Shown one piece after another: positions 6,212 to 41,352 of a DNA stretch of 43,474 bases. Each line of letters starts with the position of its first letter. Position 1 is the first letter of the stretch. A program made the translations under genes and the position numbers. The notes under the pieces were generated by a model. That model saw nothing but the letters and a program-made list of their open reading frames with translations, was not told the origin of the DNA and did no database searches. This DNA is from an uncultured Tateyamaria sp. (lineage in GTDB: Bacteria; Pseudomonadota; Alphaproteobacteria; Rhodobacterales; Rhodobacteraceae): assembly GCF_947504105.1 (NCBI RefSeq), contig NZ_CANNGP010000035.1, forward strand, positions 1 to 43,474. The letters are read 5' to 3'.

Positions 6212-6247
6212 ATGATCTCCAATTCCAGTTTACCTTTGGCAATTTAG

Positions 6248-6265: not shown

Positions 6266-6307
6266 TGTAACCTTGACTTGGAGAACCGTTTTCCATTAAT
6301 AGAAAGC

Positions 6308-7228: not shown

Positions 7229-7404
7229 TAGCGGAATCCCAATTGAGGATTCACGCGGTTTTCCAAAAACAGAAAAACACTTCCTGAAATACTGCAGGGT
7301 GCATCAAGTTTTTGTGTGTCATAAAGGCGCGAACATTAAGGAGTGTGGGTTTGTGTCAGGGTAACTGGCGTAAAGCAAGCTCCCACTATTCAGGAGTTTG
7401 TGCA

Positions 7405-8907: not shown

Positions 8908-8917
8908 GAGGTCCTCT

Positions 8918-9736: not shown

Positions 9737-9841
9737 TTTTGATGTTGCAAGCAGTTGAACTGAATGAAAATTCATATTCGCTTTGCGTGAGCGGTCAATT
9801 CGTATGCAGTGCAACAATAGGACTTTCGGAGTAATAGAAAA

Positions 9842-11230: not shown

Positions 11231-11240
11231 GTCTAGTTAG

Positions 11241-11864
11241 ATGATTAAAACGATCAATGCACCACTCGCCTTTCTTCAGAAAGATGACATCAGTACGGAC
11301 GAGATTATTCCTTCCCGGTTCCTGCTTACGACATCGGTGGAGGGTCTGGGAAAGGGTCTTTTCCACGACCTACGTTATGATTCTGACAACAAACTCAAAG
11401 AAGATTTTGTATTGAATAAGCCTCCGTTTCAGAGCGGATGTGTATTGGTTACTGGAAGAAATTTTGGTTGCGGAAGTTCGCGCGAACATGCTGCTTGGGC
11501 ACTCAAGGAATTTGGCGTGGAGGCCATAGTTTCAGAGAGCGCTGCGACAAATTTTGACCGTAACGCGGCACACAATAATCTGCCGGTAATCAAAATTTCC
11601 AAAGAAAACGTTGGACTACTTGAGCGACTGGCCACCACTGAGCCCGAGGTACTTCTGGCATCTATCAATCTAGGCGATAGGAAATTGATCACCGCTACTG
11701 ATTGTCAAATTTCATTTTCATTGTCTCGGCTGCAAGAAGAGTTTTTAAGTTCGCCGATTCCAGATATCGACAGGGCTCTGGCACAAAAAAACGAAATCGC
11801 CAAAACATGGTCCCGCCTTGCTCACAATATTAGGGGTAGATCACCCTCAATGAGTGGCAAATGA
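11241..11864 (+). CDS. Aconitase-family dehydratase small subunit (LeuD-like)
   Basis: This is the 207-residue swivelling subunit that completes the active site of the large subunit encoded 10 bp upstream. DDISTDEIIPSRFL near the N-terminus and NFGCGSSREHAAWALKEFGVEAIVSES in the middle are the family signature; the GSSRE loop binds the substrate carboxylate. The two genes should form one heteromeric hydro-lyase. It ends the plus-strand operon and faces the convergent GMC gene after 19 bp. Confidence 0.88.
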   Translation: MIKTINAPLAFLQKDDISTDEIIPSRFLLTTSVEGLGKGLFHDLRYDSDNKLKEDFVLNKPPFQSGCVLVTGRNFGCGSSREHAAWALKEFGVEAIVSESAATNFDRNAAHNNLPVIKISKENVGLLERLATTEPEVLLASINLGDRKLITATDCQISFSLSRLQEEFLSSPIPDIDRALAQKNEIAKTWSRLAHNIRGRSPSMSGK

Positions 11865-11883
11865 AGGTAGGGTTCGAACAGTA

Positions 11884-26827: not shown

Positions 26828-28768
26828 ATGGCAAAACCTTATGCATCAGAAATGGCCCAGTTGGGCACGACTTTGGACTGGATATGTCAATCTGACATAA
26901 CTGGTCTGAAGAACTCACTGAGAACGGCATGTAGTCTGCCAATGGTGGCAATCGGATCGGGCGGCTCCCTCTCTGCTGCACACGGCCTAGCAAGCAATCA
27001 CCGACAGTTTTCACAGAAAATTTCCGTTGTATCTACGCCTTTGGAAATCACTCGGGAGCCGATAGAGAAGCAATCAACCAATTGGTTACTGAGCGCCGGC
27101 GGACAAAACGTAGATGTGCTCGCTGCAGTGAGTGCTTTAATCGCTCGTGAACCTTCGCATCTTGTGGTCATGACCGGCCGCGATGACACCAAACTGACCG
27201 AGATATGCAGAGCACATCCGTTCGTTGACCTTCATATTTTTCCGCCACCCGCTGGAAAAGACGGCTTTCTGGCGACAAATTCGCTTTTTGGTTTCAGCGG
27301 ATTGATACAGCGTGCCTATACGTTGCTCTTTCAGAACGAAAAGACTTGGAACGATACCGCCGATGCAATTCGGCGCACCATAGGTGCGAGCGTAGACGGC
27401 CCGGGTCGCATGAAGGTTATGTCCGAGCCGCTATGGCAGCGTTCGACGACCGTTGTGCTGTATGGACCCGCAACGAGCCTTGGTGCGATCGATCTCGAAT
27501 CCAAGTTTACTGAAGCTGCATTGGGGTCCATTCAACTTGCCGATTTTCGCAACTTCGCTCACGGGCGCCATCATTGGCTTGCGAAACGCGGCAACGATTC
27601 AGGTGTGATTGCTCTGGTAGCTCCTGAGGATAGGAAGCTGGCCGAAAAAACTCTAGCGCTTCTTCCCGATGACATTCCCCAAGTCGTGATCGATTTGCCT
27701 GGTGGTGGATCGGCAGGTCTGGCTTCGTTGTTGGCAGCATTTGAACTCACAGGTCTTGCTGGAATCGCGCAGGGCATCGATCCTGGTCGACCAGGAGTCC
27801 CAATGTTTGGACGCCATTTGTATCGGTTGAAGCCACCTCGGGAAAAAGCGGAAAAGCCGCGCCATGGCCTGTCGCAACGCGATGTGGTGGCAATTGAACG
27901 AAAGTCTGCGAACTCAATCGAATGCTTGGAAAAGGCTGGAAAGATAAGTTTTTGGGAACAGAATCTGAACCAGTTTCGTGATGCTATTCTGTCCGAACAT
28001 TTCGATGCTATCGTTCTTGACTATGATGGCACCGTAGTCGAAACGCGCGCTCGGAAGGCACCTCCCAACAAACGGCTTACACAGAAACTGGTAGAGTGTC
28101 TCAAGGCCGATATCTGGGTCTGTTTCGCGACAGGAAGAGGTAAGTCGGTCAGAACGGCTCTACAAGACGTGATTCCAGAGCAGTATTGGGAGAAGGTTTT
28201 GATTGGCTACTACAATGGCGCTGAAATCGGATCACTCAAAGACGATCTTATCCCGGATGGTAACCCACAGGTGGGCAACGCTCTTCATAAGGCCGCCGAA
28301 CTCCTGAGGACCGACGAAGAATTGACCGGAATCTGCGAGCAGGAAGATCGGACCTATCAGATAACGGTGAGCTGTAAGAATAATGTTGATTCCACGTATC
28401 TTTTTCATCGAGTGACTGAATTACTGGCCCGGGAGGACTGTAATGACGTATCTGTCGTCCGTTCTGGCCACTCTATCGATGTCTTATCCCCGATGGTTTC
28501 TAAAAACAACGTTGCACAAGCACTGAGAAAAAATAACTCGTCTGTATCCATACTGTCTATTGGCGATAGCGGAGGGTTGAACGGCAACGATCACGATCTT
28601 TTGGCTGGGCCGTTTTCACTTAGCGTCGACAAGATCAGCTCCAATCCTGCAACATGTTGGAATCTCGGCTCCAGAGGGCAACGTGGCCCCGAAATTCTTG
28701 CCGAGTATCTAGACGCGATTGAATGCAACGACGGCACCTTCAGATTTCGCAAAGGGGCTTTGAAGTGA
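26828..28768 (+). CDS. SIS-domain / HAD-phosphatase fusion protein
   Basis: This 646-residue protein joins two enzyme types. Residues 1-330 form a double SIS module like the isomerase half of GlmS: GSGGS at 43-47 binds the phosphosugar, LLSAGGQNVDVLAA follows, and a second unit carries ESKFTEAALGSIQLADFRNFAHGRHHW. Residues 395-640 are a HAD phosphatase: nucleophile motif DYDGT at 398-402 (Asp398, Asp400), CFATGRGKS as motif II, and GDSGGLNGNDHDLL from 579 as motif IV. It should isomerise or bind a sugar phosphate and remove phosphate. It opens a five-gene operon and its stop overlaps the next start (GTGA). The ribosome site is weak (GGGAG 12 bases upstream). Confidence 0.8.
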   Translation: MAKPYASEMAQLGTTLDWICQSDITGLKNSLRTACSLPMVAIGSGGSLSAAHGLASNHRQFSQKISVVSTPLEITREPIEKQSTNWLLSAGGQNVDVLAAVSALIAREPSHLVVMTGRDDTKLTEICRAHPFVDLHIFPPPAGKDGFLATNSLFGFSGLIQRAYTLLFQNEKTWNDTADAIRRTIGASVDGPGRMKVMSEPLWQRSTTVVLYGPATSLGAIDLESKFTEAALGSIQLADFRNFAHGRHHWLAKRGNDSGVIALVAPEDRKLAEKTLALLPDDIPQVVIDLPGGGSAGLASLLAAFELTGLAGIAQGIDPGRPGVPMFGRHLYRLKPPREKAEKPRHGLSQRDVVAIERKSANSIECLEKAGKISFWEQNLNQFRDAILSEHFDAIVLDYDGTVVETRARKAPPNKRLTQKLVECLKADIWVCFATGRGKSVRTALQDVIPEQYWEKVLIGYYNGAEIGSLKDDLIPDGNPQVGNALHKAAELLRTDEELTGICEQEDRTYQITVSCKNNVDSTYLFHRVTELLAREDCNDVSVVRSGHSIDVLSPMVSKNNVAQALRKNNSSVSILSIGDSGGLNGNDHDLLAGPFSLSVDKISSNPATCWNLGSRGQRGPEILAEYLDAIECNDGTFRFRKGALK

Positions 28769-29901
28769 ACCAAGACCTCGCGTTGAAAGTCATGGGCGAA
28801 ATCATGCGTTGGGACGATGATGAAGCTCGCAAGGAGTTTCGTTGGCTGAAGCTGATGGCGCGGCTCAAATATGATGGATACCGAGATTTTCAAGCTGGTA
28901 TGCGATTCATTGAGAGCTTGGCAACGTGGCTGCAACAGTTCGACCAAGATGAACGCAAAGTAGCTTATACATTTGTTAAAGAGCGAATGGTCTATGTTGG
29001 TCCCGGCGAAGTCCGCCGGCTGGTCGAGCAGTTTTTTCCGAACACTATTCGACAACGAATTGTTCGGACCGTCGCAGCTGATCTCGGGATCAAGCCCTAT
29101 ACCGTTTTGATTGATCCTCAGGCAATAGCAGCGATTGAACGCTTACGGCGCCAAACACTTGTTTTGGGTCTCAGTGATGGCGCGAGAATGGACATTGTCC
29201 GGCATTCAAATGTCGGCCGTCTGAGCAATGAGCAGCTCGTTCTTGCACCACAGATCGATACTGAAAAATGGAAAGATCTCTTGGAGAGTTTGCGCGAGGA
29301 TTTGAAAGATAAAGATGCGCTTTTCAGGATTATCTATCTTGTTGATGACTTTGCCGGTACCGGTACGTCGTTTTTGAGATTCAATGTCGATAAGAATAAA
29401 TGGTCGGGTAAGCTAACACGGTTTCGCACATCGCTATTCAACGCAATCAAGGACGAAGATGTTGGTAACATCGTAGCCCCTGACTGGCAGTTGTGCGCTC
29501 ATCATTACATGGCGACATCTGACGCAAAGACCAAGATGACAGATAGCGAACTGGCTGCAAGAAAAACTCTGAACAGTGACGGATGGCCCAAAGAGGTTCA
29601 TCTGTCATTTGCGACCGTGTTTGATGAACAATTGCCCATTGTGTCCGGGAAGGATGATGCATTTATTGCTTTGGCAAATAAATACTATGATCCCATTATC
29701 GAGACCAAGCATACAGCGGTAGGAGGAGTTAAGCATCTTGGGCTTGGATATGGAGGATGCGCTCTGCCGGTAGTACTCGAACATAACACACCTAATAACT
29801 CCGCAGCCCTGCTTTGGGCTGAGACTTCCGGTGGTGATAGAGAGGGTGTTGACGCGCCAGCTATGCGTCCACTTTTTCGTCGTCGACAAAGGCATGTGTG
29901 A
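28765..29901 (+). CDS. Phosphoribosyltransferase-like protein
   Basis: The 378-residue protein contains IIYLVDDFAGTGTSFLRF, with VDDFAGTGTS at 193-202. This is the PRPP-binding loop of type I phosphoribosyltransferases (hydrophobic strand, two acids, then T-G-T-S). The N-terminal 130 residues look helical and could be a partner-binding region; the C-terminal 150 have mixed structure. It would attach a ribose phosphate to a base or base-like acceptor, or release one. The GTG start at 28765 has AAGGGG upstream and overlaps the preceding stop by four bases, which implies coupled translation. I know of no housekeeping PRTase with this architecture. Confidence 0.72.
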   Translation: MNQDLALKVMGEIMRWDDDEARKEFRWLKLMARLKYDGYRDFQAGMRFIESLATWLQQFDQDERKVAYTFVKERMVYVGPGEVRRLVEQFFPNTIRQRIVRTVAADLGIKPYTVLIDPQAIAAIERLRRQTLVLGLSDGARMDIVRHSNVGRLSNEQLVLAPQIDTEKWKDLLESLREDLKDKDALFRIIYLVDDFAGTGTSFLRFNVDKNKWSGKLTRFRTSLFNAIKDEDVGNIVAPDWQLCAHHYMATSDAKTKMTDSELAARKTLNSDGWPKEVHLSFATVFDEQLPIVSGKDDAFIALANKYYDPIIETKHTAVGGVKHLGLGYGGCALPVVLEHNTPNNSAALLWAETSGGDREGVDAPAMRPLFRRRQRHV

Positions 29902-29910
29902 GGCTAGAAA

Positions 29911-31824
29911 TTGGCAAATCCGTTTGAAAAAAGAGCATCTGAGTACCGCCGAGACGATGAAGCATTCTTGCCTTTGGTAACGCCGGATCCCTTGATCACT
30001 TTCTTCAAGAAACATGCTGACGACGGCAAATTGTATGATCAACTGTCGGTCATTATCGGAGCCCCAGGTAGTGGTAAGACGACAATTGCACGGCTCTATC
30101 AATACGCCACTCTGAAAACTCTTCTGCAACACGAAAGCCAGACAAACTTCAAGCCACTGGTTGACACGCTCACACAGTGTGGAGCGATCAAGAACAGAGA
30201 GCCTGTGTTACTTGGTGGACGTGTCCCCTTGGAGTCAGAGTATCGCGATTTTTGGGAATTTCCTTACCCCGAAGATCTGAAATGCAAGCTGATGTTTGCG
30301 TTGATTCAGAGCAGGACCGTCCTTTCGTGGATCAGCAATCTGGTGAGTACGGGGGTCGCGCTTGAACAAATTTCGATAATTCCTCGCGGCGACGCGATCG
30401 CCGCATTAGCTGCGATTGGTGGAAAAGACGGAATATCGCTGTTCAATAAAGCTCGCGCCATTGAAGAACAGATATATAGAATCTCGGCGGCGCTGCTACC
30501 TCCATCGATTGATGACATCGATGATGAAGCTGCAGCCGCCTATCATCCTTTTGACGTCATTGAGCGCTTCGAAATCAGGATAGGCGAACAGAAGACAGTC
30601 CTCCGTCCGCTGGTAATTTTCGATGACGCGCATAGCCTCCATCCGGAACAGTTCACAGCATTTAGGCAATGGCTAGCGCGACGTGAATTGAAGATTTCGA
30701 GATGGGTTCTAACCCGTATGGACGCGCTTTCACCGGCCGACGTTTTATTGGCCCAAGGTGAGAGCAATACCAAACGTCCGGGCCTAAAGAACGCGCGCGA
30801 ACTCACCGTGATCTGGATGCAGAGCCAAGATGATCGCTTCAGCAAACGCAAAGCCTTTCGGAAGATGGCGAAGGGCATGGCAACCCGATATTTGAGACAG
30901 ATGGATGTGTTTTCACGAAGGGGTATTCAAGATCTTACCGATTTCATCTCAACGCGTCCGGATACGATTGCACCGAGCAGGCTTGAGGCTCTGGCAAGCT
31001 CAGTAGACAGCATCCAACAGAAGAACGGGATATCGGACGCGCGCCGTAAATCACTGGAGGAACTTGTTGCCGACTACTTGTCCAGTACAGGACTAGAAGG
31101 CGAGGATGTCGCGCTAGCGATGCTTTCGATCCTGTTTCATAGATATTTGAAACGAATCCCACAGAAGGGCCTTTTCGACCATCAAGACCAGGATGTTGAA
31201 CCAAACAGGCCTATCAAGGTCGATGGCGGCATTGCAGATGGAGCAAAGGTTCGATTGCTTCATGATTTTGGACGACCTTATTACTACGATATTGATGCCT
31301 TGTGCGACGCAAGCTCAGAGAACGCTGAGCAGTTTCTTCACTTGGCATCGACGCTTGTGACGCAGGCTGAGACCCAGCTAATCCGCGAAAAACCCGCTTC
31401 ACTCTCGAGCAGAGTGCAAAACCGCCTCCTGCGGGAAAAAGCGGGGCAAATTTACCGAGAGTGGGATTTCCCGCATAGTCAGCAGGTCGCGGTGCTTGCT
31501 GAGGGAATTGCTCAACAGTGCGTGGCAAAGACACTCGAGGGCAATGCTTCGTTGGGCGGTGGGGCTGGAGCTGGGGCTTTTGGAATACCTCAAGAAGAAT
31601 TTGATGAGATTCCAAAGAAATACGAAGAACTTGCTCGTATTCTGAAGTTTGGTGCGGCCTACAATGCGTTTGTTTTGGTTCAAAACCACAGCACAAAAAA
31701 TCGCATGTGGTGCCAGATCGAGTTGAGTGGCGTCTTAAGGGTGCATTTTGGACTTTCACAAACCAGAGGCGGGTTTTTGGAACGGACAACAGATGATCTT
31801 CTGTCAATGCTGAAATCGAATTGA
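29911..31824 (+). CDS. AAA/ORC-CDC6-like P-loop ATPase
   Basis: This 637-residue protein has Walker A GAPGSGKTT at 50-58 and Walker B LVIFDDAHSLH at 234-244, with a SRWVLTRMDAL segment about 20 residues later that may serve as sensor 1. The early placement of the P-loop and the mostly helical C-terminal 350 residues recall the ORC/CDC6 and STAND-like ATPases that act as switches in conflict systems. A glycine-rich linker (LGGGAGAGAFG) lies near residue 550. The likely start is TTG at 29911, eight bases after GAGG. It is placed 9 bp after the PRTase gene. It might sense an invader, but nothing in the sequence proves that. Confidence 0.75.
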   Translation: MANPFEKRASEYRRDDEAFLPLVTPDPLITFFKKHADDGKLYDQLSVIIGAPGSGKTTIARLYQYATLKTLLQHESQTNFKPLVDTLTQCGAIKNREPVLLGGRVPLESEYRDFWEFPYPEDLKCKLMFALIQSRTVLSWISNLVSTGVALEQISIIPRGDAIAALAAIGGKDGISLFNKARAIEEQIYRISAALLPPSIDDIDDEAAAAYHPFDVIERFEIRIGEQKTVLRPLVIFDDAHSLHPEQFTAFRQWLARRELKISRWVLTRMDALSPADVLLAQGESNTKRPGLKNARELTVIWMQSQDDRFSKRKAFRKMAKGMATRYLRQMDVFSRRGIQDLTDFISTRPDTIAPSRLEALASSVDSIQQKNGISDARRKSLEELVADYLSSTGLEGEDVALAMLSILFHRYLKRIPQKGLFDHQDQDVEPNRPIKVDGGIADGAKVRLLHDFGRPYYYDIDALCDASSENAEQFLHLASTLVTQAETQLIREKPASLSSRVQNRLLREKAGQIYREWDFPHSQQVAVLAEGIAQQCVAKTLEGNASLGGGAGAGAFGIPQEEFDEIPKKYEELARILKFGAAYNAFVLVQNHSTKNRMWCQIELSGVLRVHFGLSQTRGGFLERTTDDLLSMLKSN

Positions 31825-31837
31825 TAGAGGTGAGCTT

Positions 31838-32938
31838 TTGAGATGGGACCAGTGCATTGCAAACTTTGGGCATGAAGTAGCCGATTTTGCAGAAGACTAT
31901 TTTGCCGATACGGAGCGCAAAGTGCTGCTCATCGCCGGCGCAGGTTTTGATCCAAGATCGAAAATTGTAGCAACGTGTCTGGTTGATGCAGGGACGAATA
32001 TCGAAGCTGTACTTATCAAGGAGATACGCCCGGAACCAAGTCAAGATTTGGTCGATTTGGCTGAAGACAACAAGTCGGATCTGGAAAACCTCTTACCGGA
32101 TCATGATCTCGTCGAAATTGATATTTTTGGTTCCGACAACGCTGTGGTTGGTGGACGCAACGTTGTCAAAGCACTCAATGCCCTCAATTACGCAGGCTAT
32201 ACGGATGTCATTGTCGACATTAGTGCATTGTCAATTGGGACAAGTTTTCCAGCCATTCGCTATTTCATCGAACGCATTGAAGCGAATATGCCGCCAGCGA
32301 ACCTTCATGTCTTTGTTACTCACAACCCGTCGCTTGACACCGGTATCACACTCATTCCAAGCGACTCTCCAGGTTATATACATGGTTTTCGCGGCGGCAC
32401 ATCGTTGGACAGTTCTTCAGCAGCAGCCAAGCTTTGGTTACCTCAACTCGTGTCAGGACGCCGAGCGGCACTGAATGCGTTACACGGGTATCTTGAGCCC
32501 CATGATACCTGTCCGATTGTTCCGTTCCCTGCCGCCAACCCGCGACAAGTAGACATCTTGGCGGAAGAGTACATTGCTGAACTTGAAAACGCTTGGTCGG
32601 TCGATACTAGAAATTTGGTGTATGCAGATGAATCTAACCCTTTGGATTTATACAGAACTATTTTAAGACTGCATGATCTGAGAAGGCTCGTGTTTCAGGA
32701 TATCGGTGGCTCATTGATGATATTGTCGCCACTGGGAAGCAAAATAATGGCAATCGGCGCTCTTCTGGCAGCTATGGAAAGAAACCTTCCCGTCGCATAT
32801 CTGGAAGCGATCGGCTACAATATGAGAAGTGGCCCTCCACACGGGCCAGCAGATCACAAGCTGGTTCACCTTTGGCTGGAAGGGGATGTTTACCCAAAAC
32901 CAAGGCCTGCACTGCAAAAAAACGGAAGCGTCAAATAA
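31838..32938 (+). CDS. Unrecognised Rossmann-like protein of the five-gene operon
   Basis: I cannot assign this 366-residue protein. It has the alternation of strands and helices of Rossmann folds. VLLIAGAGFDPRSKIVA at about 29-45 has a glycine-rich loop, VIVDISALSIGTSFPAIRYF at 125-144 is a second block, and ILSPLGSKIMAIGALLAAM from 295 a third. The last block faintly resembles the G-T/S-K-x-M-A stretch of CARF-type nucleotide-sensing domains, so ligand sensing is a guess. The TTG start at 31838 follows AGAGGTGAG; the spacing to the ATPase gene is 13 bp. The stop overlaps the next start (TAATG). Confidence 0.7.
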   Translation: MRWDQCIANFGHEVADFAEDYFADTERKVLLIAGAGFDPRSKIVATCLVDAGTNIEAVLIKEIRPEPSQDLVDLAEDNKSDLENLLPDHDLVEIDIFGSDNAVVGGRNVVKALNALNYAGYTDVIVDISALSIGTSFPAIRYFIERIEANMPPANLHVFVTHNPSLDTGITLIPSDSPGYIHGFRGGTSLDSSSAAAKLWLPQLVSGRRAALNALHGYLEPHDTCPIVPFPAANPRQVDILAEEYIAELENAWSVDTRNLVYADESNPLDLYRTILRLHDLRRLVFQDIGGSLMILSPLGSKIMAIGALLAAMERNLPVAYLEAIGYNMRSGPPHGPADHKLVHLWLEGDVYPKPRPALQKNGSVK

Positions 32939-33984
32939 TGAAAAATTCAAACTCTCCTCAAGCATTTGGCGCTGGTTTGATTGCTTTGGATCTCATTCTT
33001 GGGGCAGATCCCGAAGGCCCCGTGAAGTCTTGGACAGGCGGAACATGTGGCAATGTGTTATCAATTCTAGCATTTCTCGGTTGGAAATCGTATCCAATTG
33101 CCCGCATGAATGGTGATGCCGCTTCAGAGCGTGTCTTGACGGACATGCAGAAGTGGGGGGTTCAATTGGACTTTGCCAGATGTGAGCCGCAAGGTGACAC
33201 GCCAATTATCGTTCAGCAAATTAGGCCAGATCGCGACGGTAATCCAAGCCACAGGTTTTTGTGGGCCTGTCCCTCGTGCGGTAAACATCTTCCTCGATTC
33301 AAGGCTGTTACGCAGGCTGCTGTCGAAGTTGTGTCACCTCACATGGGTGACGCGGCTGTCTTCTTTATGGATAGGCTCTCGCGCGCCATGTTAACTATGG
33401 CGAAGGATGCCGCTGAAAGTGGCGCAGTTGTAGTGTTTGAACCATCTGCAAAGTCGGATCCAAAACATTTTGCAGAGGCCATAAAAATTGCTCACGTTCT
33501 AAAATATGCGGATCAACGGCTGACCGACGCAGGTGATGTAATCGGTAATGATACGTCGGTCGTTCTCGAAATACAGACACTTGGTGAGCAAGGCCTTCGT
33601 TACCGATCAAAGTCAGGCAGTCAGCCGCTTCCATGGAGCCAGATGAAAGCATTCAAAACGCCACGCCTCAAAGATACATGTGGCTCAGGAGATTGGTGTA
33701 CTGCCGGCATTATCCACAAACTTGCTTCTCATGGGTTGGAAGGCTTTTCCCAGCATGGACCCGACAACTTTTCCGATGCCCTAACTTACGGACAAAGCCT
33801 GGCAGCTTGGAATTGTGGTTTTGAAGGTGCTCGGGGTGGAATGTACTCAATGTCGTTCGAAGAGTTTCAGAAGCAGGTTGATGACATCTTGAATGGCGAA
33901 GTCTATATCGCTCCTAACAATCCGATATCTAAGGATGTTGAAGAGTCGGTACGGTGTCCGGCGTGTACCTCGCAAGCGGCGTAG
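32938..33984 (+). CDS. PfkB-family sugar/nucleoside kinase with extra cysteine pairs
   Basis: PfkB kinases phosphorylate sugars or nucleosides. The 348-residue protein has the N-terminal GAGLIALDLI, GGTCGNVLSILAFLG and the C-terminal anion-hole motif DTCGSGDWCTAG at 246-257, with Asp252 as catalytic base. Two features are unusual: a CPSC pair at 111-114 and a CPAC pair at 340-343, at the very end. They could bind zinc together. The ATG overlaps the previous stop, so it belongs to the operon. It may activate a sugar or nucleoside that the SIS-HAD protein and PRTase then use, or trap the product. The in-frame extension upstream of 32938 is rejected because it lies in the preceding gene. Confidence 0.82.
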   Translation: MKNSNSPQAFGAGLIALDLILGADPEGPVKSWTGGTCGNVLSILAFLGWKSYPIARMNGDAASERVLTDMQKWGVQLDFARCEPQGDTPIIVQQIRPDRDGNPSHRFLWACPSCGKHLPRFKAVTQAAVEVVSPHMGDAAVFFMDRLSRAMLTMAKDAAESGAVVVFEPSAKSDPKHFAEAIKIAHVLKYADQRLTDAGDVIGNDTSVVLEIQTLGEQGLRYRSKSGSQPLPWSQMKAFKTPRLKDTCGSGDWCTAGIIHKLASHGLEGFSQHGPDNFSDALTYGQSLAAWNCGFEGARGGMYSMSFEEFQKQVDDILNGEVYIAPNNPISKDVEESVRCPACTSQAA

Positions 33985-33991
33985 GTGCGGT

Positions 33992-34480
33992 CTATTCGTT
34001 AAAGAGCCGTTCGTCCCACCAAATTGGGGTTTCCAAGCCAGTTGTTATTAACTTGAAATCAGGATGTAGTGCGTTGAACACCACGTTATTCTCCATGCGT
34101 GCAACCACTGAAGGCACGATCAGGATTGCGGAGCGTTTTTCTGCATACCAGCTTCGCCCAAATTTTCGGGCCGCTTCTCCATCAGGAGTGGACCATCCCT
34201 CAATGAAGTCACTGTTGACGACTTCATAGCTTGTGCCGACTGGTATCGATATCTTGATGAAATGTTGGCCAGACGGGATTTCGCCCTGATAGTGAACCAG
34301 CTTTTCAAGCATTGCGGTCGAGTAATTTTGTGACGCATAGATCACAGCAGCGCCGGCTTCATGCCAGCGACCTGAACTCAGCCTTGCTCCACCATCATCC
34401 CAAATCGGAAACTCGCCTTTTGGGTCGCCGATACGATAGGCGGTCAGAGAGTTTTCTAACTTCCGATCCCGCGTCATCAT
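33992..34480 (-). CDS. RES-domain toxin (NAD-degrading family)
   Basis: RES toxins of the MbcT/Res type break down NAD+ and stop growth. The 162-residue protein has the motifs AYRIGD (Tyr15, Arg16), GARLSSGRWHEAGAAVIYAS, the LEKLVHY segment with its Glu, and SAILIVPSVVARMENNVVFNALHPDF with the conserved Ser. It is translated directly after its antitoxin, with a 4-base overlap. The pair probably stabilises the plasmid, and could also act as an abortive-infection module beside the operon it faces. Confidence 0.87.
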   Translation of the reverse strand: MMTRDRKLENSLTAYRIGDPKGEFPIWDDGGARLSSGRWHEAGAAVIYASQNYSTAMLEKLVHYQGEIPSGQHFIKISIPVGTSYEVVNSDFIEGWSTPDGEAARKFGRSWYAEKRSAILIVPSVVARMENNVVFNALHPDFKLITTGLETPIWWDERLFNE

Positions 34481-34950
34481 ACGGCGAAGCTGGACTCCGC
34501 ACGTCTGAGCATGTTGATCACTGCCTCAGCGCCTGCCGAGTTTGACTGTGCCATCTCAATCGGAGTACGCCCACCAAGCAATTTGTGCGGTCTGTTTAAG
34601 AAGCGCGATATCGCGTCTTCGTCTCCATGATACACACGGCTGACCGCATCGACCACACGACTAACTTCATACAGGCGCTCACTCATCTCGCGAGACAAAG
34701 CCTTGCGACTTTTCTTGGCCCTTCGCAGAGTCGCTTCTGGAATGAGAGGGCCAACAACCGCGGCACGACCGAGAGCCAAACTCAAAGTCTCTGCTGCCGA
34801 TACCGCCAGACCTTGCGCGATGCGATCTGCCAAACCAATGTCATCAAGCGGGTGTTTTGCTTTGAGTCCTAGAAGCATGCCAATTCGTCCCGACTCGGTT
34901 CCGGGTAACGCCTCTGGCGTCATGTAAGCTTGTAGCGGCGCCATATTCAT
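34477..34950 (-). CDS. Xre/MbcA/ParS-type antitoxin of the RES toxin
   Basis: The 157-residue protein neutralises the RES toxin. The C-terminal toxin-binding domain is clear: DAVSRVYHGDEDAISRFLNRPHKLLGGRTPIEMAQSNSAGAEAVINMLRR. The middle holds a weak helix-turn-helix (SREMSERLYEVSRVV). AGGAG lies six bases before the ATG at 34950. It likely represses its own promoter through the inverted repeats at 34970-35006. Confidence 0.85.
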   Translation of the reverse strand: MNMAPLQAYMTPEALPGTESGRIGMLLGLKAKHPLDDIGLADRIAQGLAVSAAETLSLALGRAAVVGPLIPEATLRRAKKSRKALSREMSERLYEVSRVVDAVSRVYHGDEDAISRFLNRPHKLLGGRTPIEMAQSNSAGAEAVINMLRRAESSFAV

Positions 34951-35280: not shown

Positions 35281-35877
35281 TCACATCGTCACAGTGTCAT
35301 CGGCAATATCAGGCAAATCCCGCAAACTATGCAGGTCAAACGTCGCCAAGAACGTCTCAGTCGTCACGAAGGTATGCGGCGCGCCCGGCCGCGGACTTTT
35401 GGGCCCGTTGCCGATCAGGTTCTTGTAGCGCAGCCGACTGAGCAGATCGCGGTTGATCTCCTTGCCAAAGATGTCGGCGAGCCCGGCTCTGTCGATCGGT
35501 TGGTGATAGGCAACGGCGCAAAGCACTGCCATTTCTTCCTCGGAAAAGTTGTGCGCTTGGTCGCCAATATCAGCTACCGTCCGGATTGCCGTCGCATAGT
35601 GAGGCCTTGTCCGGAACATCCAGCCGCCGGCAACTGGGACAATCTCATAGGGCTTGGCTTTCAGATCGGCTTGGATGTCTTCGATCAGCAGATCGATGTT
35701 CGCGCCCTTCCCGACCACCAATGACAAGGCGTCCCGCTCAACCGGTATGCTACTGGCGAAGATGACAGCCTCGATGCGGTTCATCCATTCGCGCCATCTC
35801 AACTCAGCGGGCAAGTCTTCGAGCTCAACATCGAGCATCTCAGCTTCGGTATCATCTTGTCTGCGTGCGGCCATCAT
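35281..35877 (-). CDS. scpB: ScpB-like segregation and condensation protein
   Basis: ScpB is the winged-helix kite subunit of SMC condensin complexes. The 198-residue protein has the family start RIEAVIFASSIPVERDALSLVVG and the central FSEEEMAVLCAVAYHQPIDRAGLADIFGKEINRDLLSRL, matching both winged helices. No scpA or smc lies nearby, so it may work with host condensin or in plasmid organisation with its DUF1403 neighbour. Its ATG overlaps the DUF1403 stop (TAATG), so the two are coupled. Confidence 0.85.
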   Translation of the reverse strand: MMAARRQDDTEAEMLDVELEDLPAELRWREWMNRIEAVIFASSIPVERDALSLVVGKGANIDLLIEDIQADLKAKPYEIVPVAGGWMFRTRPHYATAIRTVADIGDQAHNFSEEEMAVLCAVAYHQPIDRAGLADIFGKEINRDLLSRLRYKNLIGNGPKSPRPGAPHTFVTTETFLATFDLHSLRDLPDIADDTVTM

Positions 35878-36839
35878 TACGCCACCCCATACAGACGGAA
35901 GGAAGCGCGGCCGGTCAGCTCTTTGGCGACGCCCAATTCGATCAGGCGTTCGCAGAGCCGCCGCGCGGATCGAGGTGTCATGGCTGTGCTTGATCCACGG
36001 ATGATGGGTGACAACATCGTTGAGGGCAGCACCGCGTCTTCCGACAGAAACAGACGCACTGCGTCCTGCGACCCCTTCGTACGCAGCTTTGGTTCGATCG
36101 CGCGGAGATGCACTGCACGACGGGCCAGATCATGGGCCAATCGCACCACATCTTGAGCAGCGCGTGCGACCGCGTCGTGGCACGCGATCTGAACGTCTGC
36201 ACCGTCCGCGATATTTCGAAACACTCTGCGGTTTAGATAAAGGCCAAAAAGGGGAAGCGGTCGTTCCCATCCCAAACCGCGCGCCAGGACCGTGTCGGAG
36301 CAAAGGAGGGCTGCCGCCTCCTGACGCGGAAAATCCCGAACGAAGGTTGAGAGAACCAAGCGGGCATGGGCAACGGGGTTGCCGACGCTTTGGTTCAGCT
36401 CGCCGACCAAGTCAGGCCATTGTTCCTGCATGTCGCTCGGCAAAAGGTTCCGCAGCCGATCTTGCCAATTGGCCTGGTTCAAGGAAATCGCTGATCCTGC
36501 TCTCCACAGCGCCAACATATCGCCGGCTGGTCCCTTCGCATCACCCGGGGCGGCCAACAAATAGGCATCACGGATTTCAGCTTCGCTTTGCACCCTGCCC
36601 TCTATCTTCAGGCAATGGGCGGCCGCGCGCAGCGCCAGCCGATTGCGTAACAATTCGGTAGGGACATTGATGCTAGGATCGTTGAGGGCGACATGCAGCA
36701 AAGTGAGCGCCGCACCGCTGGCAAAGCCAGCCGTTTCTGGGGTTTCGGCACCGGAAGCATCCATGATCCACTTCGGTAAAAGGGGTGGCAATATGGTGTC
36801 AGGTGTTTTTCGTTTTGCTGCATGGGTCGTCTGAATCAT
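35877..36839 (-). CDS. DUF1403 family protein
   Basis: The 320-residue mostly helical protein fits DUF1403 as I remember it: LLPKWIMDASGAETPETAGFASGAAL at the N-terminus, RLALRAAAHCLKIEGR, and YLLAAPGDAKGPAGDMLALWR. The function is unknown. The C-terminal 50 residues (TPRSARRLCERLIELGVAKEL) look like a winged helix. It is coupled to scpB and diverges from the tyrosine recombinase, a set I associate with alphaproteobacterial plasmids. A role with ScpB in plasmid structure or recombination is an inference. Confidence 0.7.
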   Translation of the reverse strand: MIQTTHAAKRKTPDTILPPLLPKWIMDASGAETPETAGFASGAALTLLHVALNDPSINVPTELLRNRLALRAAAHCLKIEGRVQSEAEIRDAYLLAAPGDAKGPAGDMLALWRAGSAISLNQANWQDRLRNLLPSDMQEQWPDLVGELNQSVGNPVAHARLVLSTFVRDFPRQEAAALLCSDTVLARGLGWERPLPLFGLYLNRRVFRNIADGADVQIACHDAVARAAQDVVRLAHDLARRAVHLRAIEPKLRTKGSQDAVRLFLSEDAVLPSTMLSPIIRGSSTAMTPRSARRLCERLIELGVAKELTGRASFRLYGVA

Positions 36840-36914
36840 GCAAACAGTGTAAGTTATATCGGCGCTTTATGCTATCAAATAGGCATTAAACCGCCCCACC
36901 TTATACCTCTCCAC

Positions 36915-36945
36915 TATGTCCAATAAGTTTGCCTTATCGGACATA
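36915..36945. other. Inverted repeat, candidate recombinase core site or operator
   Basis: TATGTCCAATAAG (36915-36927) and CTTATCGGACATA (36933-36945) are inverted copies with one mismatch, separated by five bases (TTTGC). Arms of 11-13 bases around a short centre are the layout of tyrosine-recombinase crossover sites. It lies 20 bp before the recombinase gene. An operator for the divergent promoters is the alternative. Confidence 0.5.
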
Positions 36946-36965
36946 AAAAGAATATGCTTTGAAAC

Positions 36966-38165
36966 ATGCGCAAATCACCCGAAAAAGCCGAGAAATCGAC
37001 CTCAGCTGCCACTACCGCGTCCGGCGACGCTGCGGTCGACGAGAGAGATCAGCTGCCTGCGTCAGCCGAAGATATGCCGGACATCGATCTTGATGATCTT
37101 CTGTCAGATGAGACCGATAAGGAAGACGACAGGTCACAGAGCATCGCCCTGCCCGCTCATGTTGCGGGATCCGGATCGCTCGACCGCCTCGTCGACCAGG
37201 CACGCGGCTATGCCGCCGCCGCAACAGCCGAAAACACCAATAAGGCCTACAAGGCAGATTGGAGGCACTTCGCCAGCTGGTGCCGGCGCAAAGGCGTCGA
37301 TGCCCTGGTCCCCTCCCCCGCCGTGATCGGGCTCTACATCTCTGACTGTGCGAAACCGCAAGACGGATCCCCCGCCCTGTCTGTGGCCACGATCGAACGG
37401 CGCTTGTCCGGCCTCGCCTCCAACTACCGTCAGCGTGGTCTTACGCTCGACATGAAAGATTGTCACATCGCCTCGGTCTGGGCCGGGATCAAAAACACCC
37501 ACGGCACACCGCCAGTCCAGAAGGAAGCGGTGCTGGCCGAGGATGTGCTCGAGATGGTGGCGCTGCTCAGCTTTGGGCTGAGGGATATGCGCGACCGCGC
37601 CATTCTCTTGATCGGCTATGCTGGCGGGCTGCGCCGCACTGAGATTACCGGTCTGGATATCGGCAAAGAGGAGACTGACGACGGTCGCGGCTACATCGAA
37701 CTACTGGACGGCGGGGTTGTGATGCACATCAAGGGCAAGACCGGTTGGCGAGAGGTGGAGATCGGTCGCGGATCCTCCGATCAGTCCTGCCCGGTCCATA
37801 CACTGGAGCAGTGGATAAATTACGCAAAGATCGACTTCGGCCCGGTGTTCCGGCGGGTCTATCGGGACAATTCCGGGGTCGGGACCGAGCGACTCTCTGA
37901 CAAACATGTTGTGCGGTTGATCAAGCGTCTCGTCCTGGACTCCGGAGTTGGCCTTGACCGACCAACACTCTCAAAACTCTCTGATGAAGAGCGCGTGAAA
38001 CACTTTTCCGGCCATTCCCTGCGCGCCGGTCTCGCCTCTGGGGCAGAAGTTGATGAGCGCTACGTTCAAAAACAACTCGGTCATGCCTCCGCCGAGATGA
38101 CACGGCGCTATCAACGCCGCAGGGATCGGTTCCGGGTCAATCTCACAAAAGCGGCTGGACTTTAG
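36966..38165 (+). CDS. Tyrosine recombinase / integrase
   Basis: The 399-residue recombinase has an acidic N-terminal tail of about 75 residues, then a SAM-like core-binding domain (ENTNKAYKADWRHFASWCRRKG). The catalytic domain has Arg223/224 in GGLRRTEITGL, HSLRAG with His350 and Arg353, LGHAS, and Tyr382 in TRRYQRRR. It lies on the plasmid backbone next to rep and partition functions, with no att duplication or IS ends visible, so multimer resolution is more likely than mobility. The ribosome site is weak. Confidence 0.88.
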   Translation: MRKSPEKAEKSTSAATTASGDAAVDERDQLPASAEDMPDIDLDDLLSDETDKEDDRSQSIALPAHVAGSGSLDRLVDQARGYAAAATAENTNKAYKADWRHFASWCRRKGVDALVPSPAVIGLYISDCAKPQDGSPALSVATIERRLSGLASNYRQRGLTLDMKDCHIASVWAGIKNTHGTPPVQKEAVLAEDVLEMVALLSFGLRDMRDRAILLIGYAGGLRRTEITGLDIGKEETDDGRGYIELLDGGVVMHIKGKTGWREVEIGRGSSDQSCPVHTLEQWINYAKIDFGPVFRRVYRDNSGVGTERLSDKHVVRLIKRLVLDSGVGLDRPTLSKLSDEERVKHFSGHSLRAGLASGAEVDERYVQKQLGHASAEMTRRYQRRRDRFRVNLTKAAGL

Positions 38166-38180
38166 CCAAAGCCCCCTGCC

Positions 38181-38483
38181 CTACGCGGCGGACTGCAATT
38201 TCTCCACTTTGATCTCAGCCTCATGCAACCTGGCTTGTGCCAGTTCATAGCTGCTCTGCATACGCAACAATGTATCGGCCTTGACGCCAAACGCTTTCTC
38301 AAACCGGATTGCCATCTCGGCGGACAGACCGGTCCTGCTGTTCAACAGGCTGCTCATCGCTTGACGCGAAACGCCAAAGTGATCGGCAAGAGCCTTCACA
38401 CTCATACCTGTCGGTTCGACAATTTCAGTCTTGAGCCAGTCGCCCGCATGGACATGCAGGCCGGGATGCATTTCAAGAGCCAT
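38181..38483 (-). CDS. higA: HigA-type antitoxin
   Basis: This 100-residue helix-turn-helix protein neutralises HigB and represses the operon. MHPGLHVHAGDWLKTEIVEPTGMSVKALADHFGVSRQAMSSLLNSRTGLSAEMAIRFEKAFGV is the classical HigA sequence (helix-turn-helix about residues 28-50). The ATG at 38483 is chosen because GGAGG stands six bases upstream; a longer frame to 38519 is inside higB. The overlap with higB is 11 bases. Confidence 0.9.
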   Translation of the reverse strand: MALEMHPGLHVHAGDWLKTEIVEPTGMSVKALADHFGVSRQAMSSLLNSRTGLSAEMAIRFEKAFGVKADTLLRMQSSYELAQARLHEAEIKVEKLQSAA

Positions 38484-38763
38484 GATAATCCTCCAGATCC
38501 ATGTTGATGAGAGCACCATCCTCGTTCAACTGGAACGTCAATCGCCAGTTTTTGGTCACTGTCATCGACCAGGTGCCCTTCCGGTTCCCCGTCAACGGGT
38601 GCAATCCGTAATTTGGTGGGGTCGCCAACTCTTCCAGACCGCCCGCCGCATCGACAAAGGCCAGCATTTTGCGTAACCTGTCAGTATCACCGACCAGGCC
38701 CTTTGGGTTTCCGGTTTCAAAGAACCGCCTGAGCCCCTTATGGCCAATACTCTCAATTCTCAT
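38473..38763 (-). CDS. higB: HigB/RelE-type mRNA interferase toxin
   Basis: The 96-residue toxin has HKGLRRFFETGNPKGL at the start and YGLHPLTGNRKGTWSMTVTKNWRLTFQLNEDGA at the end, the pattern of HigB ribosome-dependent RNases. The toxin gene comes first, as in other higBA operons. The module sits between the recombinase and repC, and likely kills plasmid-free cells. Confidence 0.9.
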   Translation of the reverse strand: MRIESIGHKGLRRFFETGNPKGLVGDTDRLRKMLAFVDAAGGLEELATPPNYGLHPLTGNRKGTWSMTVTKNWRLTFQLNEDGALINMDLEDYHGS

Positions 38764-38796
38764 GTTCGTTCCTACAGTTAAGACGCAGTGCTGTCA

Positions 38797-38819
38797 AGTG
38801 TCGCCTTACGGGCGACACT
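38797..38819 (-). terminator. Hairpin at the end of the repABC operon
   Basis: AGTGTCGCC (38797-38805) and GGCGACACT (38811-38819) pair perfectly over nine bases around a 5-base loop, directly at the repC stop. No U-tract follows; a TTGACA that may start the higBA promoter comes next on the minus strand. It may end the repABC message or serve as operator for HigA. Confidence 0.5.
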
Positions 38820-40131
38820 ATGAAACGCGCTCGCTCAAACGGCCGTAGAAACTGCGGTCCAGATGCAACTCCCCTGCCCTGGCCTTCTCGACCATCCCTC
38901 GGAGATAGCCGCCAGGCGATTTGACCTCTCCGGTTGTGTGCTTGTCGAAGATCAGCGCGATCGCGGCGGCCGCAACAGCCGGACCAAGGGCCTTTTGCGA
39001 CAGGTTCCAGGCATCTTCGGATATTCCCGCCATACCCCTGATTTGCCCGGCGGCCCGGTGCAGTTCATTCCAGTCCCGGATATATCCGCCGCCAACAGCC
39101 CGCGCCATCTCGGCAAAATGAGGGCAGGTTGCCATCAGCATCGGGATATCGACCTCTGATGTGCGTTTGTTGGTATGGGTGCTCCACTGGATATCAAGAT
39201 CCACCTGTTCCGGTCTTTCAACCCGCTCAGGTTCTGGCATTTCTGGCTCAACGCCCGCCGCGTGCTTTTTTTCAAAGCGATTACTATTTACGGGATCAGG
39301 TTGGTTTGTAGTTAGTATGTGGGTGCCATCAGAGACACCTGTGGGTGCCATATTTACATTAATTGGAACTACATTGCTTTCGGAAGATGCCTCCGCATTG
39401 GGTGATTTGACGTCGGATTCCTCTGGCCAATCGAAAGCAGCCTCAAAAGCTTCCTCAACGCGGCCTTTGAAAGCTTTGAACCAGTCTACGATGTCCAGGA
39501 GCTTGTTGGCCGTTGTAGTGCGCTTTGGCAGGCTCTGAAGCAGTACAGCGAACTCTTCTTCCAAATCTTTCCACGGGCCTCTGAGGCCGCTCTCCAGAGC
39601 CTTGTCGATCTTTGCACGGATGACACGCCGCGTAATCGTCACAACATTCCTCAGAGAGGCACAGAACGCGCGTTCCTGCTTCAACTGAGCGTAGAGCGCC
39701 TCAAACTCTTCTGCGCGCGCTGCCAGCGGTGCCAGGTCGAAGCCATAGGCCTCCACAATCACACCATCCTCGTCCCTGTGGCCATAACGCTTGCCGTTGG
39801 GGCTGTCCTTGATCCAGATGAGGCCCAGTTCCGCCAGCCGACGGACATGGCGTCTCAGCGTGGACAGAGAGAACCCTGTTTGTTCCATCAGAAAGTTGTT
39901 GGAAGCCCAGACGATCGGCCGCCTGCCCTGCTCCCAATCCTGCGGCTGCGTGAAAGCGGCGAATGTATCGAGCAAAAGCAAGTCTTGCGCCTGCAGGCCG
40001 ATTGCGGCGGCCACCCTTTTGGCCGCACTCGTTGCCTGTGATTTGGGTATAGAAAGCTGTTCACCGGCTTGTGCGTGCTTTTCAGCGACCACAAGGCCCG
40101 GCGTTGGCTTGCGCCATCCGTTATGTTTCAT
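38818..40131 (-). CDS. repC: Replication initiator RepC
   Basis: RepC is the initiator of repABC plasmids and opens the origin, which lies inside its own gene. The 437 residues start MKHNGWRKPTPGL and show AIGLQAQDLLLLDTFAAFTQPQDW and the winged helix QTGFSLSTLRRHVRRLAELGLIWIKDSPNGKRYGHRD. The second domain begins after a variable linker (about residues 225-310) rich in Asn and Ser. AGGAGG lies 13 bases before the ATG. Synthesis should be limited by the counter-transcribed RNA at 40236. Confidence 0.93.
   Translation of the reverse strand: MKHNGWRKPTPGLVVAEKHAQAGEQLSIPKSQATSAAKRVAAAIGLQAQDLLLLDTFAAFTQPQDWEQGRRPIVWASNNFLMEQTGFSLSTLRRHVRRLAELGLIWIKDSPNGKRYGHRDEDGVIVEAYGFDLAPLAARAEEFEALYAQLKQERAFCASLRNVVTITRRVIRAKIDKALESGLRGPWKDLEEEFAVLLQSLPKRTTTANKLLDIVDWFKAFKGRVEEAFEAAFDWPEESDVKSPNAEASSESNVVPINVNMAPTGVSDGTHILTTNQPDPVNSNRFEKKHAAGVEPEMPEPERVERPEQVDLDIQWSTHTNKRTSEVDIPMLMATCPHFAEMARAVGGGYIRDWNELHRAAGQIRGMAGISEDAWNLSQKALGPAVAAAAIALIFDKHTTGEVKSPGGYLRGMVEKARAGELHLDRSFYGRLSERVS
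39262..39390. other. oriV: AT-rich stretch in repC with direct repeats, candidate oriV
   Basis: In repABC plasmids oriV maps to an AT-rich part of repC. This segment is clearly AT-richer than the rest of the gene and encodes the variable linker. It contains TGTGGGTGCCAT twice (39318-39329 and 39340-39351), 22 bases apart and so in different reading frames, which makes a DNA role likely. Confidence 0.55.
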
Positions 40132-40200
40132 GGGTTCTTTTCGACCTCCTTTAGTTGAAAGAGGGCAAAAGAATTCCGTTCACCGAATCGGTGTTCTGCA

Positions 40201-40230
40201 TTGACAGTGATTCGCGGAGGGTGCTATCTA
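40201..40230 (+). promoter_or_regulatory. Promoter of the counter-transcribed RNA
   Basis: TTGACA at 40201-40206 is followed after 17 bases by CTATCT (or TATCTA one base on). The promoter points against repABC in the repB-repC gap, where this plasmid class makes its antisense RNA. Confidence 0.65.
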
Positions 40231-40235
40231 GTAGG

Positions 40236-40287
40236 TGCAAATTACCTAGATCAGCTCTCTTACCGCATGGTGGAGGGCTTTTCTTTT
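40236..40287 (+). ncRNA. Counter-transcribed RNA of repABC (incompatibility RNA)
   Basis: The region after the promoter gives a transcript of about 50 bases, the usual size for repABC antisense RNAs. It contains CTCTTACC-GCAT-GGTGGAG, which can fold as a stem with wobble pairs, and ends in TTTTCTTTT (40279-40287), as an intrinsic terminator would. It should pair with the repB-repC leader and keep repC low, setting copy number and incompatibility. Confidence 0.6.
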
Positions 40288-40302
40288 GCCTGTATTAACT
40301 CC

Positions 40303-41280
40303 TCATTGTTTCTGTTCCGCCTTGAACTGCTCGTACAATTTTTCAAGGCGTTCGGAGACGAATTCTCCAAACTCGATTGCACGCTGGTCTTTAGCTTTCA
40401 CGGCGATGGTGAAGCTTTTCCCGCGCGATGTTGAACTGACCTCAATGGCCTTATCTTTGGGTGTCCACGGTCGGGCTTTTTTTGTAGCGCCCTTAATGGT
40501 CTTCTGGCCTCGTTTGAGAGTGCCAAGAAGTAATTCGAACCTTTCGTCGGAGCTGAGGGTGCCAAATCTATCTGATCCGATTATCTCTTGAGCGCGCTGC
40601 GAGTTCGCGGGGCGATCAAGCAGTGTCTTCAGCTCATACCACCTGTCTCGGCCAATTGATTTCGCGGCTCCAAGCGACGTGAGGATAGGTTCTGCAATGC
40701 TGGCAACTGACAGCATCTTTGAAAGCGTTGCCTTGTCGACCGAGAGCGCTGAGAGTGCAGTAGTATTATCGTTGTCATACCCACCGTTCGCGACGTTTGC
40801 TGCCAGCAACGCGCGTTCGAGGAAGGAAAGATTAGCACGGGCAGCATTTTCCTGGCCCTGAGCAACAACGTGATCACGATCCGACATATACTTAACGACG
40901 GCCCGGACATTAATGCCAAGCTCTTCGGCGACCTTTCGACGACGCGCGCCGAACACTACCATATATCGACCGTCTAGCTTCGGATGGGGCCTGACTAAGA
41001 TCGGTGAGTTCTGCCCATCTTCGTCGATAGCCTTCTTCAATGCCTGAAAATCACGATCATCGTGTTCTAAACGATCCTTCAAAAACGAGGGATCAATCAG
41101 CGACGGTTCAAGCTCAACGATGGTTTCGCCTTCGAGAAGCTTGTCAGCCTTGTCAGCCAAATCGTCGAGCGTACTCGAAATAGACTTCGATGCCCCACGC
41201 GAGACAAACTCGCGCTCCTTGGGGCTTGCAGGGTCCGGCGCGTCACCTAGCACGCTTTCAAATGGGTTTTTCCTAGCCAT
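40303..41280 (-). CDS. repB: Partition protein RepB (ParB family)
   Basis: RepB binds parS and works with RepA to segregate the plasmid. From the ATG at 41280 it has 325 residues and the usual opening MARKNPFESVLG. GRYMVVFGARRRKVAEELG and ENAARANLSFLERALLAAN are the ParB CTP-binding-type motifs, and VDKATLSKMLSVAS is the helix-turn-helix. The start with AGGTGGG upstream is preferred to an in-frame GTG four codons earlier. A parS-like site lies 53 bp before it. Confidence 0.92.
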   Translation of the reverse strand: MARKNPFESVLGDAPDPASPKEREFVSRGASKSISSTLDDLADKADKLLEGETIVELEPSLIDPSFLKDRLEHDDRDFQALKKAIDEDGQNSPILVRPHPKLDGRYMVVFGARRRKVAEELGINVRAVVKYMSDRDHVVAQGQENAARANLSFLERALLAANVANGGYDNDNTTALSALSVDKATLSKMLSVASIAEPILTSLGAAKSIGRDRWYELKTLLDRPANSQRAQEIIGSDRFGTLSSDERFELLLGTLKRGQKTIKGATKKARPWTPKDKAIEVSSTSRGKSFTIAVKAKDQRAIEFGEFVSERLEKLYEQFKAEQKQ

Positions 41281-41332
41281 ACAAATACCCACCTTTCACT
41301 AGGTCGATGTTTTTGTGCGGTTTTTTTGCCAT

Positions 41333-41348
41333 TTTGACTGCCGTCAAC
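41333..41348. other. parS: parS-like site between repA and repB
   Basis: TTTGACTGCCGTCAAC; its reverse complement fits the repABC partition site consensus GTTNNCNGCNGNNAAC at all but the last position. An identical 16-base site in the other orientation is upstream of repA at 42723. Confidence 0.72.
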
Positions 41349-41352
41349 TTAC

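Follow-up and report, generated by a model that had tools for sequence, protein, structure and literature searches.

A widely distributed operon joining a phosphoribosyltransferase, an ORC-type ATPase and a tandem-CARF protein to sugar-phosphate enzymes: a candidate mobile conflict system

Results

A five-gene operon on a repABC plasmid contig

The stretch of DNA analysed here (the window) is the entire contig NZ_CANNGP010000035.1, 43474 bases, from an uncultured Tateyamaria sp. The contig is a repABC plasmid, whole or partial, since it carries repA, repB and repC along with genes for a MobA/MobL relaxase, a type IV coupling protein and an integrase. The subject of this study is a set of five co-directional open reading frames (ORFs) on its forward strand. 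Gene 1 (26828..28768; 646 residues) encodes an apparent fusion of a SIS domain of the GlmS/phosphosugar-isomerase type to a HAD-IIB phosphatase; gene 2 (28765..29901; 378 residues) a phosphoribosyltransferase (PRTase) of the PRTase-CE type, with a motif, DDFxxxG, resembling the loop that binds phosphoribosyl pyrophosphate (PRPP); gene 3 (29911..31824; 637 residues) an ORC/CDC6-like AAA ATPase; gene 4 (31838..32938; 366 residues) a tandem-CARF protein of the CARF6 family; and gene 5 (32938..33984; 348 residues) a kinase of the PfkB/ribokinase family. Coordinates and spacing are those described in an initial annotation of the sequence: genes 1 and 2 overlap in GTGA (gene 2 starting with GTG at 28765), gaps of 9 and 13 bp precede the TTG starts of genes 3 and 4, respectively, and gene 5 begins with the ATG of a TAATG overlap. 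Start codons were assigned by judgement from the sequence. The same annotation described the operon as AT-richer than the plasmid backbone. This is true with respect to the neighbouring plasmid stretches (49.8% GC versus 57%) but not to contig positions 1-15000, where GC content is equally low (48.8%), so that the AT-richness of the operon, taken alone, says little. A promoter/terminator scan of the operon scored no better than shuffled sequence.

The window's proteins were scanned with Pfam, PADLOC (PADLOC-DB 2.0.0, 2023) and NCBIfam models, the last returning HAD, PfkB and RES-Xre names and nothing further. The assignments made initially for genes 1, 2, 3 and 5 were borne out by Pfam profiles and, for SIS, by a PDB profile. 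The HAD domain of gene 1 was matched by PF08282 (2.6e-6). Its N-terminal SIS domain escaped the Pfam scan and was recognised by a profile search against PDB through the phosphosugar isomerases 8eol/3hba (E 1.8e-5), the match ending at the HG pair. Residues E229 and H245 in the SIS part and D398, D400, K559 and D580 in the HAD part are invariant in 87/87 aligned copies. We take E229 and H245 to be equivalent to Glu488 and His504 of GlmS; to judge from these features, gene 1 carries a GlmS-type SIS fold with its catalytic Glu and His-Gly. Gene 2 matched PRTase-CE (PF24390) at 1.4e-16 (61.6 bits) and gene 3 matched ORC-CDC6-like (PF24389) at 2.9e-12 (46.5 bits), both above the curated cut-off of 27; as families, these supply names only. 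Gene 2 was also matched by the PADLOC model PRTase_III-A (2.7e-12). The PRPP-binding loop motif consists of two acidic residues and a following Gly; D195 and G200 of gene 2 are present in 96/96 copies and D194 in 93/96 (E in the other 3), and the segment appears to be such a loop. The Walker A lysine (K56) and Walker B aspartate (D238) of gene 3 are found in 95/95 copies. Gene 5 matched PF00294 (1.1e-9) and, in a profile search, fructokinase 5ey7 (E 5.4e-19); D246, G249, G251 and D252 are invariant in 82/82 copies. When profiles were run against PDB sequences, gene 2 found no relative and gene 3 only weak P-loop matches. Asp398 of gene 1, Lys56 of gene 3 and Asp252 of gene 5, the residues singled out in the initial annotation, are all among the invariant ones. 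From what is known of the families, we take the conserved positions of the SIS, HAD, PRTase, ATPase and PfkB domains to be catalytic.

The product of gene 4 is a tandem-CARF protein

Gene 4 had been annotated as Rossmann-like. It does have a Rossmann-like fold, that of CARF domains, but its identity as a tandem-CARF protein had been missed. The sequence also matches CARF families: the PADLOC CARF6 models recognised it at 2.8e-141 and recognised 57/57 members of the gene-4 family, among which matches to CARF1-HEPN (8), Csx1 (6) and CARF3 (3) were found as well. A profile search against PDB sequences gave no relative for gene 4, no effector domain was recognised in its chain, and the homologues listed (best 120 of 1503) carry no precomputed Pfam domain.

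The ligands that CARF sensors are mainly known to read are cyclic oligoadenylates made by Cas10. The genome from which the window derives has no Cas10 by PF22335. Since this model also matches an E. coli control, models for Csm1 and Cmr2 were added; with these, 43/46 host genomes of relatives gave no Cas10 match below E 1e-10. Csm1 was above cut-off in two of the 46 and Cmr2 in one (one host being shared); another Cmr2 match, at 2.2e-16, stayed below the cut-off, and the other Cas10 matches had E values between 6e-5 and 1e-3. Dependence of the operon on type III CRISPR was thus ruled out for most hosts tested.

Conservation and distribution of the five-gene unit

Searching plasmids by tblastn yielded 17 records with the CARF protein and 18 with the PRTase, the former contained in the latter; 16 of the 18 were examined; the other two nearly duplicate the first record and were left out. 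All that L023 has is a lone PRTase piece. In 15/15 other loci the PRTase, ORC and CARF genes are adjacent, with SIS-HAD nearby in 15 and PfkB in 14, the locus lacking PfkB being on a Rhizobium lentis plasmid (L015). Several operon genes of locus L021 are split over frames. No DNA nearly identical to the operon was found in plasmids. When genomes were scanned with the PRTase alignment, 304 relatives came up, and the neighbourhoods of the 80 best were examined. All five genes are co-stranded in 69/80 loci, the remaining 11 being cut by contig ends; 53 of the 69 have the gene order of the window and 16 the order PRTase-ORC-CARF-SIS-HAD-PfkB. The possibility raised initially, that the five genes never occur together elsewhere, is thereby dismissed. 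The 69 include L054, whose PRTase and ORC share one frame; the end of the PRTase profile finds no match there, which may reflect a frame error, and the locus was not used as a fusion. They also include damaged loci, with PfkB split in L055 and an inserted ORF in L052 and L069. The insert breaks the ORC gene in L052 (12685-14379) and the CARF gene in L069 (13680-15002).

Hosts, by record title, belong to Pseudomonadota, Planctomycetota, Actinomycetota, Chloroflexota (Kouleothrix), Bacteroidota (Chryseolinea), Gemmatimonadota (Longimicrobiales), Acidobacteriota, Desulfuromonadaceae, Poribacteria, Entotheonella and Zixibacteria, and include a Chlamydiae metagenome-assembled genome; many of the records are such assemblies, in which misbinning is possible. 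The phylum of some host names is the one we presume. Because the 80 loci had been found through the PRTase, an unselected test was made on a sample of 398 genomes of the phylum, the window's own genome included, searched with SIS-HAD, PRTase and CARF6. Matches were found in 6, 5 and 7 genomes, respectively. All 5 PRTase genomes lie within the 6 SIS-HAD genomes, and 6/7 CARF genomes are these same 6; the seventh gave a weak match with four stops (G003, E 8e-4), which was dropped as spurious. In all 6 the matches are adjacent to one another; one of these genomes, with the matches on a 4051-base contig, is without the PRTase (G185). Leaving out the own genome, the probability that 4/4 PRTase genomes would be among 5 of 397 by chance is 5e-9. 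Recurrence across loci and co-occurrence in this sample rule out a chance cluster. At the same time the distribution is patchy: SIS-HAD was found in 2/101 relatives, own genome included, and had no match in the 19 same-genus genomes listed. The five-gene unit, with its invariant active-site-type residues and its tandem-CARF protein, is conserved across phyla.

Two exchangeable modules and an associated NADAR gene

Pairwise distances between loci (78-89 per pair of genes, near copies retained) correlate more tightly within the PRTase/ORC/CARF trio (r 0.92-0.96) and between SIS-HAD and PfkB (0.95) than across the two groups (0.82-0.85). In Bradyrhizobium locus L022, the trio falls in a divergent clade, while SIS-HAD and PfkB are placed in that of the window; L014 shows a similar mix. 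Loci from Rhizobium tumorigenes (L018) and Sinorhizobium meliloti (L020) have two trios, one typical and one divergent, with a single SIS-HAD and a single PfkB, the second PRTase of L020 being split over two frames. From the distance correlations, the mixed clades and the double-trio loci it follows that the trio is exchanged as one part and the sugar-phosphate enzymes as another. A CPxC pair, mid-chain or C-terminal, is found in 60/61 PfkB proteins outside clade II (43 having both) and in 0/21 of clade II; it is possibly a metal site that divides the family.

In 30/96 loci a NADAR gene is found no more than 6 kb from the unit, at a median distance of 11 bp between ORF spans and, in 24/30, on the opposite strand. 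Its presence tracks the SIS-HAD clade: it accompanies 19/19 loci of clade II, 5/8 of clade III (the 3 misses being on cut contigs) and 2/54 of clade I, the clade of the window. The window itself has no NADAR among its ORFs. The remaining NADAR loci are 3/5 singletons and L021, whose broken SIS-HAD was left unplaced. According to PMC9503650, NADAR domains are ribosyl N-glycosidases with riboflavin intermediates and ADP-ribose derivatives as substrates. They could therefore undo N-ribosyl products.

Genes flanking the operon

Flanking sequences were compared after dropping ten loci (nine near-duplicates and L023). They held 443 ORFs of at least 130 residues within 3.5 kb, of which the nearest 140 (up to 551 bp away, from 80 loci) were scanned; these are mechanical ORFs, some perhaps not genes, and two are the inserts of L052 and L069. 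At 1e-10 the PADLOC models matched (best 25 of 107) included GajA and GajB of Gabija, type I and II methyltransferases, PD-T7-1, PD-T7-5, PDC-M01B, DpdF and HmaC. In a control of 129/213 ORFs from 16 arbitrary genome stretches only IetA, mad3 and TRIP13 models were matched. The result counts models matched, not distinct proteins, and the control is chromosomal, unmatched for mobile DNA. Pfam domains among the 140 ORFs include NADAR (26), Patatin (3), T4SS (3) and RES (2). DpdF and DpdA (Dpd, 7-deazapurine DNA modification) and IU_nuc_hydro (nucleoside hydrolase) were found in one flanking ORF each. A family annotated 'RHE_PE00001' occurs near the operon in 12/96 loci (L008, L009, L010, L017, L018, L020, L021, L037, L042, L044, L045 and L082) and is probably the DUF1612/HTH_13 protein of 6/140 flanking ORFs.

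In the window itself, the operon is adjoined on the right, as the initial annotation stated, by a RES toxin and Xre/MbcA/ParS antitoxin pair (33992-34950, reverse strand; PF08808 2.5e-23, PF09722 1.8e-11). The repABC backbone follows at 35281-42549 (ScpB, DUF1403, integrase, repCBA); a relative of the ScpB-region ORF is again found near the operon in L016, L034, L039 and L045. About 13 kb from the operon, positions 1321-13488 hold a catabolic group comprising a DctP binding protein, SDR, BKACE, aldo/keto reductase, LysR, aldehyde dehydrogenase, PEP mutase, a split aconitase and GMC oxidoreductase.

Discussion

Relation to known systems

Clear PADLOC matches were obtained for genes 2 and 4 only, under different names, gene 3 giving weak P-loop matches; by component models of PADLOC-DB 2.0.0 (system rules not run) the operon does not correspond to any one known defence system. 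The five-gene set is undescribed in the excerpted open-licence PMC literature, a scope outside which lie the 2020 CARF classification and conflict-system surveys that may list parts of it; it goes without mention in the excerpts of PMC12839542, PMC4012209, PMC13092281, PMC12669027, PMC7824862 and PMC7159879. Gene 4 differs from the CARF effectors Can1 (PDB 6sce), Can2, Card1, Cam1 and Csm6 in that no nuclease or other effector domain was recognised in its chain. It differs from type III CRISPR effectors also in its hosts, mostly without a clear Cas10 (see above), and in its position, within a PRTase operon that has no CRISPR genes next to it in the 15 annotated plasmid loci. CARF is coupled with a HAD phosphatase in the Chp effectors as well. 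Chp, however, belongs to type III CRISPR and is a single fused membrane protein that acts on ATP/IMP (PMC12715507), whereas the operon has separate genes, a HAD fused to SIS and, in most hosts tested, no clear Cas10.

The PRTase has two precedents in defence. Going by the model name and by PMC12548924, PRTase_III-A would be the effector of type III-A retrons, and it is homologous to gene 2. The partners of the PRTase are here an ORC ATPase and a CARF protein, and no reverse transcriptase is annotated in the 25 kb covered at the 15 plasmid operon loci, in gene tables that are incomplete and with no dedicated search for the enzyme or its RNA. Attempts to transform E. coli with Ppe1 were unsuccessful, and it was presumed toxic (PMC12548924). 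The second precedent is a DprA and PRTase pair from P2-like hotspots that protects against T7 and lambda; its authors propose that DprA senses DNA and activates the PRTase, the effector (PMC9122126). As in the operon, a protein of DNA-sensor type is paired with a PRTase, but the sensor is DprA instead of an ORC-type ATPase, and CARF, SIS-HAD and PfkB are not mentioned in the excerpted text. The likeness is one of description.

A conflict system with a gated PRTase effector, and its rivals

Because of the PRTase precedents, the CARF fold, the plasmid location and the patchy distribution, we tentatively favour the explanation that the operon is a mobile, self-contained conflict system, probably anti-phage or anti-plasmid, with a CARF- and ATPase-gated PRTase effector. 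The recurrence of the unit in independent genomes, the two-module pattern of distances, the link of NADAR to the SIS-HAD clade and the defence models matched in the flanks also count in its favour. It is ranked most likely, signal-making and metabolic or repair roles being its main rivals. The conflict role and overall interpretation put forward initially are thus partly supported; the role is not proved, and the membership of NADAR in part of the family had gone unnoticed. The trio would be both alarm and weapon. The ORC-type ATPase may recognise invading or replicating nucleic acid, and the two CARF domains may form one pocket for a nucleotide ligand, not made by Cas10 in most hosts tested. 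Together they would release the PRTase, which would use PRPP to phosphoribosylate a base or amine, with the nucleotide pool drained or poisoned as a result. The second module (SIS isomerase, HAD phosphatase, PfkB kinase and, where present, the NADAR N-glycosidase) would handle the phosphoribosyl or sugar-phosphate product, either keeping basal activity harmless or setting the level of the ligand.

Several observations weigh against this explanation. Retron Bpu1, of type III-A, failed to defend against the panel of phages on which it was tried (PMC12548924). PADLOC models matched neither gene 1 nor gene 5, and gene 3 only weakly, as noted above. Gene 4 has no Pfam family, no Pfam CARF model matched any of the 57 family members, and Foldseek, used alone, placed transporter domains above CARF proteins. 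The CARF protein had no match in phage records, and the PRTase was found in 3 viral contigs. The excess of defence genes in the flanks may partly be an effect of mobile DNA. All the enzymes look active, which is compatible with a plain metabolic role. All in all, a gated effector is given slightly less than an even chance.

The PRTase and SIS-HAD/PfkB could instead make a new nucleotide-like second messenger, sensed by the tandem-CARF protein, with the ATPase as trigger. The unit does contain enzymes that might build a modified nucleoside, CARF folds bind nucleotide second messengers and, with 43/46 hosts showing no clear Cas10, the CARF ligand must come mostly from elsewhere. However, PRTase homologues have been proposed as effectors, not signal makers (PMC9122126), no effector domain was recognised in the unit, and the gene-4 homologues listed carry no precomputed Pfam domain (see above). 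We regard such a role as rather unlikely, and just as unlikely its corollary that the effector is the ATPase-CARF complex itself or an unlinked target. A similarly low probability is given to a metabolic or metabolite-repair operon, whose enzymes (kinase, SIS isomerase/deglycase, HAD phosphatase, PRTase and NADAR) would remove damaged ribosyl-amines or consume an unusual nucleoside, with CARF and ATPase serving only as regulators. Sugar phosphates or nucleosides are substrates of every enzyme family present, in known deglycation pathways a SIS enzyme is paired with a PfkB enzyme, and the activities described for NADAR (see above) would fit. Yet the unit is patchy (6/398 genomes, 0/19 congeners listed), ORC-type ATPases and CARF proteins are, to our knowledge, unusual as regulators of catabolic operons, and none of the 15 annotated plasmid loci has a transporter gene inside the unit, which also argues against the ordinary sugar-utilisation operon considered initially. 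Transporter genes are found beside the unit, outside it, in some of these loci (e.g., an ABC cluster in R. lentis). Finally, the trio might sense a competing replicon, with the PRTase as addiction toxin, in plasmid maintenance or inter-plasmid exclusion. This would agree with the repABC contig and its MobA/L relaxase, the adjoining RES-Xre toxin-antitoxin pair, the ORC-like ATPase family and the plasmid records, 8/17 of which are typed conjugative and 1 mobilizable; it is very improbable, however, as chromosomal copies are likely, 11/80 genome loci being on contigs of over 1 Mb (up to 6.3 Mb).

A broader proposal, which we consider possible if doubtful, is that the operon represents a self-contained form of signalling immunity outside CRISPR and CBASS: a new nucleotide-like second messenger or ribosylated product, made or cleared by SIS-HAD, PfkB and NADAR, would be read by the tandem-CARF protein, which, with the ORC-type ATPase, would license the PRTase effector. 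If true, the chemistry of the signal would be new, and a CARF pathway would operate without Cas10. Modular exchange, seen in the loci with two trios and one metabolic module and in the association of NADAR with one SIS-HAD clade, leads to testable predictions on which parts cooperate. Since a CARF protein is here tied, within one operon, to a PRTase and to sugar-phosphate enzymes, and its hosts mostly show no clear Cas10, the unit would offer a direct handle on the ligands of orphan CARF proteins and on the action of PRTase effectors.

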